The position numbers and the translations under genes are program-made. The notes beneath the pieces are model-generated. The model ran no database searches. It saw only the letters and a program-made list of their open reading frames with translations, and had not been told where the DNA came from. From contig CALWNP010000025.1 in assembly GCA_944382835.1 (NCBI GenBank), positions 1-36,351 of the forward strand: 36,351 bases of DNA. Direction: 5' to 3'. The stretch is from an uncultured Gemmiger sp. GTDB lineage: Bacteria > Bacillota > Clostridia > Oscillospirales > Ruminococcaceae. This document shows positions 1,732-23,868 of the stretch, in pieces. Numbering within the stretch: the first letter of the stretch is position 1; each line of letters starts with the position of its first letter.

Positions 1732-3222
1732 ATGAATCAGACCATCACTGCCCTTCGGGCGCTGGAGCGGGCGCTCTACGCCTATCACTATGCCCAGAAC
1801 GTCATCGACTATGACAGCGAGACGGTGGCCCCCGCCGGGTCGGCCGCCGGCCGGGCCGAGGCCATGGAGGTGCTGAGCAAGGCGGAGTTCGACCTGCTGG
1901 TGAACCCCGACACCGCCGCCCTGCTGGCCGCCGCCCGGATGGCCGCCGAGACCGAGCAGGAGGCCGCCGAGGTGCGGGAGCTGCAGCGCCGGTACGACGA
2001 GATCCACCGCATCCCCGCCGAAGAGTACGCCGCCTTTACCCGGCTGGTGCAGCAGAGCATCCCGGTGTGGGTGCAGGCCAAGCGCAGCAGCGACTTTTCC
2101 CTCTTTGCCCCCTATCTGGAGCAGATTGTGGAGGCCCGCCGCAGCCAGGCCCGCTACTTTGACCCCAACCGGGACCCCTACGAGGTCTGGCTGGACCGGT
2201 ACGAGCGGGGGCTGACCATCGCCGCCTGCGACGAATTCTTTGCCACCCTGCGGGGAACCATCGTGCCGCTGCTGGCCGAGATCGGCCGCCGGGGTGCCCC
2301 GGTGCGCACCGATTTCCTGGACCAGGACTGGCCGCTGGAGGGCCAGCGGGCGGTTTCGGCCAGGATCATGGAGATCTGGGGCCTGGACCCCGACCACTGC
2401 GCCCTGGGGGAGAGCGAGCACCCCTTCACCACCGAGTTCTGGCGGGGAGATGTGCGGATCACCACCCACTATATGCCCCGGGATGTCTTTTCCAACCTCT
2501 ACAGCGTGGCCCACGAGGCCGGCCATGCCCTGTATGAGCTGAACATCGACCCGGCGCTGGACTACACCGCCGTCACCGGCGGCTCCACCATGGGGCTGCA
2601 CGAGAGCCAGAGCCGCTTGTTCGAGAACTATGTGGGCCGCAGCCGGGCCTTTGTGAGCTACCTGGACCCCATCCTGCGGGAAATCTTCCCCGGCAAGCTG
2701 GACGGGGTGAGCACCGAGGAACTCTACCGCGCCGTCAACCGGGCCGAGCCCAGCCTGATCCGCACCGAGGCGGATGAGCTGACCTACGCCCTGCACATCA
2801 TGGTGCGGTACGAGCTGGAAAAGGCCCTGCTCCAGGGGACCCTGGCGGTGAAGGACCTGCCCGCCGCCTGGAACGCCAAGTACCGGGAATACCTGGGCAT
2901 CGAGGTGCCCGACGACGCCCACGGGGTGCTGCAGGACATCCACTGGGCCATGGGAGATATGGGGTACTTCCCCAGCTACGCCCTGGGCAGCGCCTACGGT
3001 GCCCAGGCCATGGCGGACCTGAGCAAGACGCTGGACTTCGACACCCTCTTTGCCGCCGGCAACCTGGCCCCCCTGCGGGACGCCCTGCGCAGCCGGCTGT
3101 GGCAGTACGGCTGCCTGAAGGAGCCCCAGGACCTGGTCCGCTCCCTCTGCGGCGGCAACTTTGACCCTCACTACTACACCGACTACCTGACCAAAAAGTA
3201 TACAGAATTGTACAAATTGTAA
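1732..3222 (+). CDS. M32 family metallocarboxypeptidase (carboxypeptidase Taq type)
   Basis: A 496-residue zinc carboxypeptidase that removes C-terminal residues from peptides in the cytoplasm. The zinc site is HEAGH (261-265) with the glutamate of LHES (E291) as third ligand, the M32 arrangement. The length matches the family norm of about 500 residues, and there is no signal peptide. The ATG has AAAAGGAG 6 bp upstream. It is transcribed alone: a divergent promoter region precedes it and a strong hairpin follows. The role is most likely recycling of peptides from uptake or protein turnover; nothing next to it suggests a dedicated substrate. Confidence 0.93.
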   Translation: MNQTITALRALERALYAYHYAQNVIDYDSETVAPAGSAAGRAEAMEVLSKAEFDLLVNPDTAALLAAARMAAETEQEAAEVRELQRRYDEIHRIPAEEYAAFTRLVQQSIPVWVQAKRSSDFSLFAPYLEQIVEARRSQARYFDPNRDPYEVWLDRYERGLTIAACDEFFATLRGTIVPLLAEIGRRGAPVRTDFLDQDWPLEGQRAVSARIMEIWGLDPDHCALGESEHPFTTEFWRGDVRITTHYMPRDVFSNLYSVAHEAGHALYELNIDPALDYTAVTGGSTMGLHESQSRLFENYVGRSRAFVSYLDPILREIFPGKLDGVSTEELYRAVNRAEPSLIRTEADELTYALHIMVRYELEKALLQGTLAVKDLPAAWNAKYREYLGIEVPDDAHGVLQDIHWAMGDMGYFPSYALGSAYGAQAMADLSKTLDFDTLFAAGNLAPLRDALRSRLWQYGCLKEPQDLVRSLCGGNFDPHYYTDYLTKKYTELYKL

Positions 3223-3241
3223 TAACAGAAAGAAATACAAC

Positions 3242-3284
3242 AAAATGGCGGAAGCAATCCCAACAGGAAAGCCTCCGCCATTTT
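3242..3284 (+). terminator. Terminator after the M32 peptidase
   Basis: AAAATGGCGGA (3242-3252) pairs perfectly with TCCGCCATTTT (3274-3284), 19 bp past the stop codon. The symmetric A/T flanks allow function on both strands. Confidence 0.8.
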
Positions 3285-3285
3285 A

Positions 3286-3540
3286 TATAGTAGAGAAGGT
3301 TTGCAAAGGGCGGATGCCCTTTGCGTTCAATCCATACCTTGCTCAAAGGGCCCGTCAAGGGTGGGCCCTTTGAGGAGTCCAGGGCTTACAGCCCTGGTCG
3401 GGCGTCCACCGCCTCGAAACGGTGGGACTTTTTCGGTTCCTTTTTGGTCACAAAAAGGAACAGCACTCCGGGGGGATGCCGTCTTCGCGGCGGTCCCGAA
3501 ACACAACCCCTTCGGAAGAGGCCCGCTTTCGGGAAAGCCT
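3286..3540 (-). repeat. Hairpin-chain repeat, copy A (short form)
   Basis: One of three copies of an element built of consecutive hairpins. It is oriented here by the converging DUF362 gene, whose stop (3547) it touches. The stems are at 3406-3425 (CCACCG/CGGTGG), 3379-3397 (CCAGGGCT/AGCCCTGG), 3344-3372 (CAAAGGGCCC/GGGCCCTTTG) and 3303-3324 (GCAAAGGGC/GCCCTTTGC), followed in gene direction by ACCTTCTCTA. Unlike copies B and C it lacks an internal module of about 130 bp. It fills the gap between two convergent genes, and there is no ORF that I can support in it. Confidence 0.8.
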
Positions 3541-3546
3541 CCAGCC

Positions 3547-4671
3547 TCACCGCACTTCCTTCAACACATACTCCTGAGTCCCAAACCCAATCTTCTCGGC
3601 ATGGTCAAGGGTCTCGTGCCAGGTGGTGCCGGGGGTAACATCCATAAAGTTGTCCCCGCAGCACCGGTCCTTCCGCTTGGCGCGGTTCTCGCCCAGAATG
3701 CTGTTGGCAATGGGCTCGGCCCGGTTGACGGCATCGGCACAGGCCCGGTCCAGGGCCACCGGATCAAAGCTGGCAAACATGCCGATGTTGGGCACGATGG
3801 GCACATCGTTCTCGCCGTGGCAGTCGCACATGGGAGAGACATCCATCACCAGGCTGATGTGGAAGTTGGGCCGCCCATGGCAGACCGCATAGGCGTACTC
3901 GGCCATCTTGCAGTCCAGCAGGGCGTTGGCGTTGTCCTGGGGGGCATAGATGGCGTCAAAGTTGCACCGGCCGATGCAGCGGCCGCAGCCCTTGCACAGA
4001 TCCTGGTCGATGTGGGCCTTGCCGCCCTCGTAGGTGATGGCGTCGCTGCCGCACTCCTTGGCGCACTGGCGGCAGCCGCGGCAGAGCCCTTCCTGCACCA
4101 CCGGCTTGCCAGCCTTGTGCTGCTCCATCTTGCCGGCGCGGGAACCGCAGCCCATACCCAGGTTCTTCAGCGCACCGCCGAAGCCGGTGGACTCGTGGCC
4201 CTTGAAGTGGTTCAGCGAGATGATGATGTCGGCGTCCATGATGGCCCGGCCGATCTTGGCGGTGGGGCAGTACTCGGCGTTGGGCACCGGCACCTCGATG
4301 TCATCGGTGCCCCGCAGGCCGTCCCCGATGATGATGTTGCAGCCGGTGGTCAGGGGGCCGAAACCGTTCTCCTGCGCCGCGGTCATGTGCTCCAGGGCGT
4401 TCTTGCGGCGGCCCGGGTAAAGGGTGTTGCAGTCGGTGAGGAAGGGCAGGCCACCCTTCTTCTTGATGACATCAGCCACCGTCTTGGCGTAGTTGGGCCG
4501 CAGATAGGCCAGGTTGCCCGGCTCGCCGAAATGGATCTTGATGGCCACAAACTTGCCGTCCATGTCAATCTGGTCGATGCCGGCGGCGTAGAGAAGTTTT
4601 TCCAGCTTTTGCTGCAGGCTGGTGCCCACCGGAACCCGGAAATCGGTGTAATAGACAGTTGCTTCTTCCAT
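3547..4671 (-). CDS. DUF362 domain protein with two 4Fe-4S clusters
   Basis: A 374-residue cytoplasmic protein with a DUF362 region (about 1-190 and 245-374) into which a two-cluster ferredoxin module is inserted. The cluster ligands are C197xxC200xxC203xxxC207 and C226xxC229xxC232xxxC236, each the standard CxxCxxCxxxC spacing. DUF362 proteins are common in anaerobes and generally annotated as iron-sulfur or ferredoxin-like proteins; the reaction is unknown, and an electron-transfer role is inferred from the clusters. The start at 4671 fits the conserved opening EEATVYYTDFR better than a longer frame; a purine-rich AAAGGTGGG lies 12 bp upstream, rather far. The 3' end runs straight into repeat copy A. 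Confidence 0.85.
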   Translation of the reverse strand: MEEATVYYTDFRVPVGTSLQQKLEKLLYAAGIDQIDMDGKFVAIKIHFGEPGNLAYLRPNYAKTVADVIKKKGGLPFLTDCNTLYPGRRKNALEHMTAAQENGFGPLTTGCNIIIGDGLRGTDDIEVPVPNAEYCPTAKIGRAIMDADIIISLNHFKGHESTGFGGALKNLGMGCGSRAGKMEQHKAGKPVVQEGLCRGCRQCAKECGSDAITYEGGKAHIDQDLCKGCGRCIGRCNFDAIYAPQDNANALLDCKMAEYAYAVCHGRPNFHISLVMDVSPMCDCHGENDVPIVPNIGMFASFDPVALDRACADAVNRAEPIANSILGENRAKRKDRCCGDNFMDVTPGTTWHETLDHAEKIGFGTQEYVLKEVR

Positions 4672-8257: not shown

Positions 8258-8303
8258 AGATGATTGCTAAATGAACCTGACAATAGAAACAGAGGGAAAG
8301 ACC

Positions 8304-9449
8304 ATGGCAGAAAAACAGACCAAGATTGATATTTTTTCGGGATTTCTGGGCGCCGGCAAGACGACCCTGATCAAAAAGCTCATCAAGGAAGCCTTCGGCG
8401 GCGAAAAGCTGGTGCTGATCGAGAACGAATTCGGCGAGATCGGCATTGACGGCGGCTTCATGCGGGAGGCCGGCATCCAGGTCAACGAGCTGAACTCAGG
8501 CTGCATCTGCTGCAGCCTGGTGGGCGACTTCCGGGAAGCGCTGAAGAAGGTGGTGGACACCTACCATCCCGACCGCATCCTCATCGAGCCCTCCGGCGTG
8601 GGCAAGCTGTCCGACGTGACCCGGGCCGTGGAAGGGGTGGCCGAATCCCTGCCGGTGGTGCTGAACAGCTTTGTCACCGTGGCCGACGTGAACAAGGTCA
8701 AGCTGTATATGAAGAACTTCGGCGAGTTCTACGATGACCAGGTCAGCCATGCCTCCTGCATCATCCTGAGCCGCACCGGCAATGTGGACGAGAAGAAGCT
8801 GAACACCGCCATCGCCCTGCTGCAGGAGAAGAACCCCACCGCCACCATCGTGACCACCGACTGGATGTCCCTCAACGGTAAGCAGATCCTGTCGGTCATG
8901 GACGGCAAGCGGGACCTGGTGGCCGAGCTGATCGCCCAGGCCAAGAGCAACAACGAGCTGCACCAGGGTGAGGAGGAGCACCACCATCATCACCATCATG
9001 ACCACGAGGATCATGACGAGTGCTGCCACCACGATCATGACCATGAGGACCACGACGAGTGCTGCCACCACGATCATGACCATGAGGACCACGACGAGTG
9101 CTGCCACCACGACCATGACCATGAGGACCATGACCACTGCGGCTGCGGTCATCATCATCACCATCATGACCACGACGCCGACGAGGTGTTCACCAGCTGG
9201 GGCCGGGAAACCGCCCACAAGTACACCCGGGAGGCCCTGGAGGACGCCCTGGAAGGGCTGGACCTGGGCACTTACGGCATGATTCTGCGGGCCAAGGGCA
9301 TCGTCAACGGCGGCGACACCTGGTACGAGTTCGACATGGTGCCCGGCGAGCACGAGATCCGTCCCTGCGGCCCCGATGTCACCGGCAAACTCTGCGTCAT
9401 CGGCTCCAAGCTGGACGAGGCCGGCCTGGCCACCCTCTTCGGCCTGTAA
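8304..9449 (+). CDS. COG0523/CobW-family GTPase with His-rich metal-binding insert
   Basis: A 381-residue G3E-type GTPase of the CobW/COG0523 group, which loads metals (Zn, Co, Ni or others) onto client proteins using GTP. The P-loop is GFLGAGKTT (13-21) and the family signature CxCC is GCICC (66-70). Residues 226-292 form a His/Asp/Cys-rich stretch containing tandem 13-residue units (HEDHDECCHHDHD type; 39-bp DNA units at 9000-9038, 9039-9077, 9078-9116 plus a partial one), a metal reservoir. The CobW C-terminal domain follows. The usual NKxD guanine motif is not obvious (LSRTGN at the expected place). The ATG at 8304 has GAGGGAAAG upstream. It forms an operon with the next gene (19-bp gap). 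Confidence 0.9.
   Translation: MAEKQTKIDIFSGFLGAGKTTLIKKLIKEAFGGEKLVLIENEFGEIGIDGGFMREAGIQVNELNSGCICCSLVGDFREALKKVVDTYHPDRILIEPSGVGKLSDVTRAVEGVAESLPVVLNSFVTVADVNKVKLYMKNFGEFYDDQVSHASCIILSRTGNVDEKKLNTAIALLQEKNPTATIVTTDWMSLNGKQILSVMDGKRDLVAELIAQAKSNNELHQGEEEHHHHHHHDHEDHDECCHHDHDHEDHDECCHHDHDHEDHDECCHHDHDHEDHDHCGCGHHHHHHDHDADEVFTSWGRETAHKYTREALEDALEGLDLGTYGMILRAKGIVNGGDTWYEFDMVPGEHEIRPCGPDVTGKLCVIGSKLDEAGLATLFGL
9000..9137 (+). repeat. 39-bp tandem repeats coding the His-rich insert
   Basis: Three near-identical 39-bp units and a partial fourth lie in frame within the GTPase gene. Units 2 and 3 differ by a single base (GATCAT versus GACCAT), so the expansion is recent. Copy number may vary between strains. 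Confidence 0.85.
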
Positions 9450-11624: not shown

Positions 11625-12761
11625 ATGCTGCATCTGGACTGGAAAACCTGCCTGCGGGCGGCGGTGACGGTGGTGGCCGTCTGGCTGCTGGTTCACTACT
11701 GGGGCACCCTGGCCGGCGGGGTGATGCTGGCCTTTCACGCCGCGGCGCCGCTGCTGCTGGGCTGTGTGATCGCCTATGTGGTCAACATCCCCATGTCGCT
11801 GCTGGAACGGCTGTGGCCCCGGCGCGCTCCCCGGGCCCTGCGCCGGCCGGTCTGCCTGGTGGCGGCCTTCGCCCTGGTGGTGCTGGTGCTCACCGCCCTG
11901 ACCTCCATGCTGCTGCCCGAGCTGGCCCGCTGCATCCAGGTGCTGGTGGACAAGCTGCCCGACGCCCTGAACACCGCCACCCTCCAGGTGGAGCAGATGC
12001 TGCAGAACAGCAGCCTGCCCGCCGATGCCTCCACCAATCTGCAGAAGGCCCTGCCCGACTGGAACGGGATGATCGGCCAGGGCATCAACCTGGTGCTCAG
12101 CGGGGTGGGCGGTGCCATGGGCAAGCTGGCCCAGGCCATCGGCTCCCTCTTCTCCGCCGCCGTCATGGTGCTGGTGGGGCTGATCTTTGCCAGCTACCTG
12201 CTGCTGGGCAAGGAGCGGCTGGCCCGCCAGTGCACCCGGCTGATGACCACCTATCTGCCCAAGGGCATCACCGACCGGGCCCTCTATGTCCTGGACACCA
12301 TCAACGACAGCTTCCACAGCTTCATTGTGGGCCAGTGCATCGAGGCGGTGATTCTGGGCGCCCTGTGCACCGTGGCCATGCTGCTCTTCCGGCTGCCCTA
12401 CGCCTCGATGATCGGGGTGCTCATCGGCTTCACCGCCCTGATCCCCATTGCCGGGGCCTACATCGGCGCTGTGGTGGGCGCCTTCATGATCTTTACCATC
12501 TCGCCGGTCCAGGCGCTGGTCTTCATCATCGTGCTGGTGGTGGTCCAGCAGCTGGAGGGCAACCTGATCTATCCCCGGGTGGTGGGCGCCTCCATCGGGC
12601 TGCCCGGCATCTGGGTGCTGGCCGCCGTGACCATCGGCGGCGGCGTCATGGGGGTGGGCGGCATGCTGCTGGGGGTGCCGCTGGCGGCCGCCCTCTATCG
12701 GCTGCTGCGCCACGACATGAACAAGCGCACCGCCGACCCCGACCCGGTGCTGTCCGACTGA
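11625..12761 (+). CDS. AI-2E family transporter (PerM/YdbI type)
   Basis: A 378-residue integral membrane protein of the AI-2E/PerM family. It has two helices at the N-terminus, a helix at about 80-100, a soluble loop at about 105-170, and then a block of helices at 170-360 containing the conserved GLIFASYLL and the run of glycines near the end (GVGGMLLGVPLAA). Family members export small molecules or, in some bacteria, exchange sodium and protons; the substrate here is not known, and the AI-2 link is historical. GAGGAGG precedes the ATG at 11625. It has its own promoter and terminator, so it is a one-gene unit. Confidence 0.88.
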   Translation: MLHLDWKTCLRAAVTVVAVWLLVHYWGTLAGGVMLAFHAAAPLLLGCVIAYVVNIPMSLLERLWPRRAPRALRRPVCLVAAFALVVLVLTALTSMLLPELARCIQVLVDKLPDALNTATLQVEQMLQNSSLPADASTNLQKALPDWNGMIGQGINLVLSGVGGAMGKLAQAIGSLFSAAVMVLVGLIFASYLLLGKERLARQCTRLMTTYLPKGITDRALYVLDTINDSFHSFIVGQCIEAVILGALCTVAMLLFRLPYASMIGVLIGFTALIPIAGAYIGAVVGAFMIFTISPVQALVFIIVLVVVQQLEGNLIYPRVVGASIGLPGIWVLAAVTIGGGVMGVGGMLLGVPLAAALYRLLRHDMNKRTADPDPVLSD

Positions 12762-22737: not shown

Positions 22738-22896
22738 ATGTCCAACGGCATTTACACACAGAGCGAGTATCATGGTCAGCTGATCCGCAAAATCGTCTGT
22801 AATGGCGAAGAGCGGTGGTTTTTTGGGGAAGATTGTTCGGTGACCTTTGATACCCTGCAGGACTGCCGGGAGGCGATTGATCACCGGGTGGGGTGA
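22738..22896 (+). CDS. Small protein of unknown function (52 residues)
   Basis: A short ORF too small for usual ORF calling but with a credible promoter and a GGGAGG site 9 bp before its ATG. The product starts MSNGIYTQSEYHGQLIRKIV, is soluble, mixed in charge, and has three cysteines (21, 33, 43) and a Trp-Phe-Phe core. I do not recognise it. The mixed beta-like pattern suggests a small compact domain rather than a leader peptide. Repeat copy B begins directly after its stop, as copies A and C do after their genes, which supports it being a real transcribed gene. Confidence 0.55.
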   Translation: MSNGIYTQSEYHGQLIRKIVCNGEERWFFGEDCSVTFDTLQDCREAIDHRVG

Positions 22897-22899
22897 GTT

Positions 22900-23321
22900 C
22901 TTTGGCCCCTGGCGGGGGCCCGTCGGCTGACGGGAGAACGGCTGCTTTCCGATAGGCCCGTCGGGGACCGTAGGCCCGGTGCTGCGGGTTTCGGGGTGGA
23001 CCACCCCGCAAGCGATCCTCCCCCGAAGGCGTTCCTTTTTGTGACCGTGGTAAGGTAGTGTTTGTGCTTACCATACAGTTCCGCGCGAGACGCGGAACAC
23101 CCATTTCGGAACCAACGCTGCGCGTTGGTTTGTGCATCGCGCTATGCGCGATTGCGCAGCATAGCTGCTCAGGCACAAAAAGTCCCACCGTTCCGATGCG
23201 GTGGACGCACGGCCAGGGCTGTAAGCCCTGGACTCCTCAAAGGGCCCACCCCTGACGGGCCCTTTGAGCAAGGTATGGATCTAGAATCAAGGGCATCCGC
23301 CCTTGATAATCCTTCTCTATA
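22900..23321 (+). repeat. Hairpin-chain repeat, copy B (long form)
   Basis: This copy starts just past the small-ORF stop and, read in that direction, has the internal module (23044-23176) and then stems 23185-23204, 23213-23231 (CCAGGGCT/AGCCCTGG), 23238-23266 (CAAAGGGCCC/GGGCCCTTTG) and 23286-23307 (ATCAAGGGC/GCCCTTGAT), closing with CCTTCTCTATA. Its internal module is nearly identical to that in copy C and itself consists of short palindromes. Together with copy C it makes a large interrupted inverted repeat. Confidence 0.85.
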
Positions 23322-23325
23322 AAAC

Positions 23326-23380
23326 AAAAGCCAGAAACAACAGGATAGGCGTGTTGCCTCATCCTTGTTTCTGGCTTTTT
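23326..23380. terminator. Strong hairpin at the centre of the inverted repeat
   Basis: AAAAGCCAGAAACA pairs with TGTTTCTGGCTTTT (14 bp), then a 2-nt bulge and AGGAT/ATCCT; a T5 run lies on the plus strand and an A-run on the other side. It sits between copies B and C and could end transcription from both sides. The adjoining 23381-23470 shows only a small GGAGGAGCCTCC palindrome. Confidence 0.75.
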
Positions 23381-23470
23381 GGTTTATGTTGCAGTTTTCG
23401 GAAGTGTTTTCTAAAACCCTTCCTCTAGGTTTGGATTCCGGTTCCGGAGGAGCCTCCGTAGGTGGTGGAT

Positions 23471-23868
23471 TATAGAGAAGGTTTGAAAAGGGCGAAGCCC
23501 TTTCCCTAATAAATTCTTCCTTGCTCAAAGGGTCCGTCCGCGGTGGACCCTTTGAGGGGTCCAGGGTTGAAAACCCTGGTCGGGCGTCCACCGCCTCGAA
23601 ACGGTGGAACCTTTTGTGCCTGCGCAGCTATGCTGCGCAATCGCGCATAGCGCGATGCACAAACCAACGCGCAGCGTTGGTTCCGAAATGGGTGTTCCGC
23701 GTCTCGCGCGGAACTGTATGGTAAGCACAAACACTACCTTACTACGGTTACAAAAAAGGAACGCTTTCGGGGGAATGCCGCCTTCGGGGTGGTCCACCCC
23801 GACAAAACCAGCGAGAAACATCCGAACCCCGTCGGGCCTATCGGAAAGCAGCCGCTTTCCCAAAAAGG
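23471..23868 (-). repeat. Hairpin-chain repeat, copy C (long form)
   Basis: This copy touches the stop of the EamA transporter (23869) and reads in that gene's direction: tail, internal module (about 23616-23750), then stems 23588-23607, 23561-23579 (CCAGGGTT/AACCCTGG), 23526-23554 (CAAAGGGTCC/GGACCCTTTG) and about 23486-23503. Two stems differ from copies A and B by paired changes that keep base pairing. No ORF in it is supported. Confidence 0.85.

Follow-up and report, generated by a model that had tools for sequence, protein, structure and literature searches.

Results

A Structured Repeat beside a DUF362 Gene

The window, by which we mean the whole 36,351-nt stretch of Gemmiger DNA analysed here, holds a repeat that an earlier note, written from the sequence, had described at three places (copies A, B and C). 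Copy A lies downstream of a peptidase M32 gene that ends at 3222, and a minus-strand DUF362 gene has its stop at 3547, directly beyond the end of the copy at about 3545. The hairpin just before copy A looks like the intrinsic terminator of the upstream gene, and the other single arms, when compared, have upstream sequences unlike that of copy A. The features of this region are as follows.

3239..3288, no strand assigned: terminator-like hairpin between the M32 stop codon and copy A, found by eye and outside the repeat
3291..3545, plus strand: copy A, a single arm; its 5' boundary, TAGAGAAGG, is conserved and its outer (3') end is about 2 nt from the DUF362 stop codon
3303..3324, plus strand: hairpin H1 (GCAAAGGGC/GCCCTTTGC)
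3342..3374, plus strand: hairpin H2 (CTCAAAGGGCCC/GGGCCCTTTGAG), with several fully compensated stem versions within the genome
3379..3397, plus strand: hairpin H3 (CCAGGGCT/AGCCCTGG)
3398..3425, plus strand: probable pseudoknot PK1, TCGGGCG (3398-3404) with CGCCTCGA (3410-3417) and CCAC(C) with GGTGG (3421-3425)
3426..3461, plus strand: pseudoknot PK2 with a triplex-compatible loop, made of the parts S1, L1 and S2
3426-3428 and 3447-3449, plus strand: S1 of PK2, GAC/GTC
3429-3434, plus strand: L1 of PK2, TTTTTC
3436-3446 and 3451-3461, plus strand: S2 of PK2, GTTCCTTTTTG/CAAAAAGGAAC
3462..3545, plus strand: variable tail, rich in hairpins, reaching the convergent stop codon

Elsewhere in the window, tandem 39-bp repeats lie at 8979-9194 within a cobW-family gene (8271-9449). 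Read by eye, they encode a His/Asp-rich tract, likely a metal-binding insert.

The earlier note had read a chain of four hairpins whose stems change in a paired way between copies. The stems that it quoted are all present: H1 is GCAAAGGGC/GCCCTTTGC in copy A and ATCAAGGGC/GCCCTTGAT in copy B, the second stem is GGGCCC/GGGCCC in A and B and GGGTCC/GGACCC in C, and the third is GGGCT/AGCCC in A and GGGTT/AACCC in C. The pattern extends well past these examples. When 40 arms from the same genome were aligned over the stretch between the conserved 5' boundary and the fourth stem, RNAalifold predicted 39 pairs, and 14 of them had changed on both sides with pairing kept; H2 alone occurs with the alternative stems CTCAAAGGGCCC, CTTTTGGCCCCC, CTCAAGGCCCCC, CTCAAAGGGTCC and CTTTTTGGGTCTG, each with a matching partner. 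Stem mutations lacking compensation, which the note had named as evidence against folding, are present but few in this alignment, where unpaired cells occur at four pairs, in 1 to 11 of the 40 arms. Since the copies within a genome are related by descent, the independent compensating events are fewer than the sequences. It seems, then, to be the fold and not the letters that the element preserves.

The chain stands for H1 to H3. Beyond them, the fourth stem region (CCACCG/CGGTGG) fits both a simple hairpin and PK1, in which RNAalifold pairs TCG.GCG with CGC.TCGA across the loop TCCAC. Columns 113-132 of this pairing are UA in 24 and CG in 14 of the 40 arms, and columns 116-128 are GC in 17, UA in 12 and unpaired in 11. 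Since the loop CCAC can pair with the GGTGG that follows, PK1 is a probable pseudoknot. The T-rich hairpin after the fourth stem, the next in the chain as first described, belongs to the H-type pseudoknot PK2.

Compensated changes in hairpins could also arise with no selection on the fold, if template switching during replication corrected one hairpin arm from the other and the repeat spread by ordinary recombination. Correction of quasi-palindromes is an established process, and it could account for the changes seen in H1 to H3; we return to this explanation with PK2.

Copies, Pairs and Neighbouring Genes

Copies B and C belong together as the arms of a single composite with a homologous centre and do not count as separate instances of the repeat. 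The composite is laid out as a minus-strand arm, a 153-bp centre and a plus-strand arm:

22932..23319, minus strand: copy B, the L-type arm of the paired element, with a 130-bp insert (about 23045-23176) that breaks PK2
23320..23472, no strand assigned: centre of the paired element, with the hairpin GCCAGAAACAA..TTGTTTCTGGC, T runs on both sides, and small hairpins
23473..23861, plus strand: copy C, the R-type arm paired with copy B, with the same insert (about 23616-23750)

The unit is flanked by a 52-aa plus-strand ORF, read by eye, that ends at 22896, and by an EamA transporter gene whose stop (23869) is about 8 nt from the end of copy C. Among the window's three copies, PK2 is whole in copy A only.

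The recurrence of the repeat is borne out across the genome, a 2.52-Mb Gemmiger metagenome-assembled genome in 83 contigs (91% complete). A search with copy A returned 57 matches, itself included (E<=0.001), and this copy number is far beyond chance. Copies outside the window were examined in 17 fetched stretches. A fuzzy search for the core gave 51 hits, from which three that lacked the remainder of the repeat were dropped, leaving 48 arms. PK2 is exact in 39 of these, carries a single-T deletion in one and is interrupted by an insert in eight. The hairpin-rich insert of 130 bp is the one seen in copies B and C, recurring in six further arms, and may itself be a nested repeat.

Besides single arms there are pairs, of which 18 were listed and 17 measured, the eighteenth (L031:14243) being dropped for its incomplete right arm. 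In each of the 17, an L-type arm (ATTATCAAGGGC) and an R-type arm (TTTGAAAAGGGC) flank a centre of 132-170 bp. The centres are homologous, with a mean pairwise identity of 77% and a minimum of 51%, and in two of the 17 pairs (L031_573 and L031_10711) the terminator half of the centre is a different sequence. Most centres hold the hairpin GCCAGAAACAA..TTGTTTCTGGC flanked on both sides by T runs, so that they look like bidirectional terminators. A separate arrangement was seen at L032:11370-12912, where two outward-facing single arms flank an unannotated gene (11698-12360) in the manner of a one-gene cassette; its centre is not homologous to the centre of the pairs.

The earlier note had placed every copy immediately after a stop codon, in one orientation relative to the gene, and had taken each to be transcribed as a 3' UTR. 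In the window, a stop does adjoin the 3' side of copy A (DUF362) and of copy C (EamA), and of copy B if the 52-aa ORF is a gene. Across the genome, a gene directed at the arm's 3' (outer) end has its stop no more than 450 nt from the core at 34 of 48 arms, against an expectation of 50% (p=0.006), but no such stop was called at the other 14, so that the orientation is biased and not fixed. These are simple ORF and codon-bias gene calls, and single position cases may therefore be wrong. The inner neighbour of the 16 single arms is a gene end in nine, a gene start in five and was not assigned in two. Several pairs sit between convergent genes. The arms are dispersed, and the genes next to them are unrelated to each other. 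In other Gemmiger genomes, 26 of 37 modules fell inside simple ORF calls, which are probably spurious ORFs of GC-rich DNA, and these positions were set aside.

A structured 3'-UTR RNA, co-transcribed with its neighbour and with pseudoknots that would block exonucleases at the 3' end or bind a protein, would give such a bias towards facing stops. It would also suit an uncultured Clostridia genome described below (G062), in which, for 22 of 28 intergenic copies of a related module, the gene on the 5' side ends towards the module and places its stop there (p=0.004). Moreover, the passages covered of PMC6061858 and PMC5696562 present triple-helix H-type pseudoknots as bacterial riboswitches. However, the facing gene in the Gemmiger genome reads into the element's 3' end, and its mRNA would therefore hold the reverse complement, the strand opposite to the one that wobble pairs favour (see below). 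The orientation to genes varies between the two lineages, the host genes are unrelated, the element is absent from the orthologous sites examined, and tolerance of insertions would by itself place copies next to stops. On these grounds we consider a 3'-UTR RNA unlikely.

Element-Free Sites in Related Genomes

The clearest comparison of orthologous sites comes from the HflX/Band-7 locus (L040), whose first gene is found in 35/35 Gemmiger genomes, our own included. We read 30 loci, our own and those of 29 relatives, and the core motif was found at this gene in none of the 29. In all eight syntenic relatives the second gene is convergent at a distance of 84-128 nt (to the match end) and there is no module between the genes, while in our genome the element is present and the gene-to-gene distance is 717 nt. 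The short, element-free spacer in 8/8 syntenic relatives indicates that the element is insertion-derived. The native terminator, or host spacer, has been replaced and not split, and simple insertion is therefore not the whole story.

At the copy-A gene, the core motif is absent from 22/22 orthologous loci, where the gene order differs. The L036 gene was read in 15 relatives' loci, where the lack of synteny leaves the comparison with little weight. Downstream sequence is missing from L203, and the others have no module within about 800 nt after the stop. In L196 one stands about 0.8 kb downstream of the stop, past the point where a further gene begins; L194 and L197 have modules elsewhere in the locus. 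Being dispersed and absent from the orthologous sites examined, the element looks more like a repeat of mobile type than like a UTR tied to a particular gene.

Candidate mobility functions were sought in the same 91%-complete genome. It has no match to the Y1 transposase family (PF01797), which was found in 5 of 14 control genomes, and no match to a reverse transcriptase. Read by eye, single Gemmiger arms show no terminal inverted repeats or target duplications, and blastn of the element against phage and plasmid collections gave no match.

A Covarying Pseudoknot Stem

PK2 runs in the order S1a, a pyrimidine tract (L1), G, S2a, S1b, a short joint and S2b. We first noticed S1 in our own genome and in other Gemmiger genomes; the distant lineages, read later, pair in S1 too. 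The covariation set was 37 distinct modules picked by S2 and L1 only, with S1 ignored. In these, S1 scored 0.242 for covariation against 0.085 in shuffled sets (0 of 500 as high), and partners slid out of register reached at most 0.076. There were 55 double-change cells against 20.6 in shuffles (0/500), and the helix was paired in 73.6% of cells in one register. The number of S1 pairs with a double change (291/500 shuffles as high) and the number of further pair types (133/500) showed no excess over shuffles in this alignment. Versions of S1 include GAC/GTC, AAC/GTT, CAC/GTG, CGC/GCG, GCGAC/GTCGC, GCAAC/GTTGC, CGGC/GCCG, CGCC/GGCG, TTGC/GCAA and TGTC/GACA.

Across Gemmiger, Desulfobulbaceae, a gammaproteobacterium and a member of the Bacteroidetes, 50 of 51 S1 pairs are Watson-Crick, with none of 10,000 shuffles as good, after a one-base register shift applied to S1 of the three lineages outside Clostridia. 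Those three alone give 15/15 pairs from five sequences, which are too few (488/10,000 shuffles). In G062, 48 of 60 pairs are kept, 42 Watson-Crick and six G-U, and there is one A-C in addition (19/10,000); S1 is weak in a frequent subfamily there, with the loop CACTG. An H-type pseudoknot at PK2 is thus supported by the covariation of S1.

Template switching does not easily account for S1, in which a loop pairs with bases lying beyond the hairpin, nor for the parallel match of L1 set out below, which is not a Watson-Crick complement. Among the explanations weighed here we regard correction without selection on the fold as the least probable, and the earlier argument for selection on folding gains from the covariation seen in the pseudoknot's S1 as well as in the hairpin stems and, for Gemmiger, in a third strand.

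A Triplex-Compatible Loop and the Folding Strand

The geometry of H-type pseudoknots takes L1 across the major groove of S2, in parallel with S2b. We scanned 925 kb of fetched loci for parallel matches in one fixed register, leaving the composition of L1 free. The scan gave 359 combinations of S1, L1 and S2, which overlap and in many cases represent a single site in different registers. In 82 of the 359, every base of L1 has its parallel Hoogsteen partner (T with A, C with G). Among these 82 are asymmetric blocks. TTTTTC/AAAAAG was seen in Gemmiger and G062, and TTTTCT/AAAAGA, CTTTCTT/GAAAGAA (on two S2 backgrounds) and CTTTCTC/GAAAGAG in Gemmiger genomes only; for each of these the direct-repeat alternative scores lower. 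The lengths of tract and stem also vary together, as T4, T5 and T6. The Desulfobulbaceae, gammaproteobacterial and Bacteroidetes modules, with a 7-nt L1 that fits only with a one-base shift, are absent from the full parallel matches. A looser longest-common-substring test had found the mirror relation ahead in 24 rows and the direct relation in 22, with 36 equal; the fixed-register test was adopted after this gave no separation, because in the looser test the tract was free to match anywhere along the stem. A Y·R–Y triple helix needs its third strand to match the purine strand in parallel, and in Gemmiger and G062 L1 is able to do so.

The mirror relation is shared by some hairpins that have no pseudoknot loop, such as TTTCTTC before GTTCCTTCTT. 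In Gemmiger genomes, a second kind of hairpin lacking this loop, at L063, L064, L102 and L125, shows a similar relation of mirror tracts, for example GTTCCTTCTTTGCAAAGAAGGAAC after TTTCTTC.

The strand that folds can be judged from wobble pairs. S1 has six G-U wobbles against one A-C, all from G062, and conserved G-U pairs in H2 point to the strand that these wobbles favour, with the qualification that RNAalifold favours G-U by construction. Folding energies do not separate the strands (25 of 40 arms; 20 of 34 G062 copies). Judged by its wobbles, the pyrimidine-loop strand is more likely the one that folds.

The parallel match and the location of several pairs between convergent genes would also suit an element acting as DNA, with mirror tracts and hairpins forming triplex or cruciform DNA that affects replication, supercoiling or rearrangement. 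The passages covered of PMC4666352 link intergenic triplex repeats of E. coli to instability. S1 pairing and the wobbles, however, require a single strand and not duplex DNA, and we think an action of the element at the DNA level very unlikely.

Related Modules in Other Lineages

By BLAST, the repeat is found in 20 of 34 other Gemmiger genomes and in none of 26 genomes outside the genus. The module itself is more widespread. A genome-collection scan for the 20-mer CTTTTTCGGTTCCTTTTTGG returned 29 stretches, of which 23 have the hairpin partner by eye, two of them imperfectly (L111, L118). Eleven of the 23 are from Gemmiger or 'Subdoligranulum', five from G062 and five from Desulfobulbaceae BM506, and the rest are one gammaproteobacterium (three copies) and one member of the Bacteroidetes; some are the same contigs as in genomes that were searched separately. 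The remaining candidates (L099, L101, L103, L105, L114 and L115) have no hairpin partner and were taken as chance.

The hairpin pattern occurs in 66 copies in G062, against none for a backward control. Of 34 module copies examined there, 14 lie between inverted ends of the ATAGCAATCC/GGATTGCTAT type, in units of 156-337 bp of which six are exactly 173 bp, and three between GGGGCTGTAAAAAA and its complement; the other 17 have neither end type. Up to two substitutions per end were allowed, and the count is one made without a chance control. In the Desulfobulbaceae, the module lies at the 3' end of a conserved element that has about 230 nt upstream of it and a long hairpin whose arms, by eye, are compensated in L104 and L111. 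In Desulfobulbaceae BM506 (L091, L100, L104, L111, L117) this long structured element ends in the pseudoknot. The gammaproteobacterial genome (G064, locus L119, C5:49418-50205) has four such hairpins in 0.8 kb, with neighbours 77 and 86 bp apart. The idea that a GGTTAC-type version is widespread is not supported, one exact pattern having been found in 1 of 274 genomes from the class to which G064 belongs.

Among 245 genomes drawn from the window's order, with other Gemmiger outside the draw, two have the T5 pattern TTTTTCGNTTCCTTTTT..AAAAAGGAA: our own genome, with 40 copies, and G500, with nine. G500 belongs to another genus of the order, and its nine triplex-like hairpins, TTTTTCGGTTCCTTTTTTTCAAAAAAGGAA (L205, L207, L209, L211, L213, L215), have a loop of 3-4 nt that leaves no room for S1.

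Discussion

The earlier note knew of no named family with this layout, and our searches agree. Rfam 15 at the gathering threshold gave no hits in the window and one tRNA only in 10 related-element loci; hits at relaxed thresholds in the element regions were all below the cut-off and were taken as chance. No known MITE or REP family was matched among the systems compared here. Among the matches listed, the open-licence literature does not describe the element. Several known systems nevertheless share some of its features.

The BIME/REPIN family consists of intergenic, inverted REP pairs around a spacer, hairpin-based and present in many copies, with arms of some 20-40 bp. The Gemmiger element is likewise intergenic, hairpin-based and present in many copies per genome, and all its measured pairs are inverted units around a spacer, although it occurs as single arms too. 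Its arms, however, are about 250-390 bp and contain pseudoknots, and no Y1/RAYT transposase was found in the genome. The element also resembles MITEs in being non-coding and dispersed, with an empty site in relatives (8/8 at L040, with the spacer replaced), and half of the G062 copies of the related module (17 of 34) lie between inverted ends, including the six units of one exact length. It would differ from MITEs in that no short terminal repeats or target duplication were seen by eye at Gemmiger arms, and it differs in the strong structural covariation of its internal core.

PK2 has the S1/L1/S2 arrangement of the SAM-II/SAM-V, preQ1-II and guanidine-III riboswitches and of telomerase RNA, in which a loop occupies the major groove of a stem; the likeness is one of how the folds would work. 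The pseudoknot triplexes of riboswitches are leaders of particular genes, and telomerase RNA is one RNA gene. The Gemmiger element, by contrast, is a set of dispersed repeats next to unrelated genes, not in a conserved 5'-leader position, with no known ligand or associated gene. Its pseudoknot is supported by covariation, and the putative third strand by a match of sequence.

Intrastrand triplex repeats are already in print (PMC4666352), with another motif and with no pseudoknot in the passages covered. Those passages describe PIT/TM_ECO as repeats between bacterial genes whose three tracts can combine into an intrastrand triplex, TM_ECO being a G/C-rich purine-motif triplex of the form 5'-CCCTCNCCC N3-6 GGGNGAGGG N3 GGGNGAGGG. 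The purine motif described there, a C-rich stem with two G-rich stems, was not found in our element, which has a pyrimidine tract before a Y/R hairpin. It differs further from TM_ECO, as presented in that source, in that its third strand would be a pyrimidine one, part of an H-type pseudoknot whose S1 covaries, within a larger structured element.

We suggest that this is a non-coding, dispersed, insertion-derived and non-autonomous element of Gemmiger whose fold is kept through a trans-acting factor that reads the folded single strand, a reading for which we hold belief and doubt about evenly balanced. The element would be mobile in the broad sense in which BIME/REPIN and MITE units are, taking the form of single arms and of L-arm/centre/R-arm pairs. 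Its pyrimidine-loop strand would fold in the cell into the hairpin chain, then the probable pseudoknot and then the H-type pseudoknot, where L1 may occupy the major groove of S2 as a third, parallel strand through U-A-U and C+-G-C triples. The fold would be kept if the factor recognised this single strand, as RNA or ssDNA, during copying. Insertions would survive at gene ends, and in the paired form the centre hairpin would replace the host terminator.

A broader reading seems rather unlikely to us, though it deserves mention. The module would define a phylum-crossing class of structured RNA or ssDNA borne by mobile elements, in which a telomerase-RNA-like fold combining a pseudoknot with a triple helix serves as the recognition fold for copying, carried by otherwise unrelated repeats of Gemmiger, one further Clostridia lineage, Desulfobulbaceae, a gammaproteobacterium and a member of the Bacteroidetes.

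Dispersed bacterial repeats are usually described as hairpins, and here a pseudoknot stem covaries across lineages. Together with a third strand that tracks the stem in Gemmiger, the covarying S1 makes it a testable matter whether such repeats are read as folded single strands. The copies also offer a natural collection of possible Y·R–Y triplexes that vary in length and sequence. If it is true that elements of several phyla share the module, this would point to an unknown mechanism of copying or protection.
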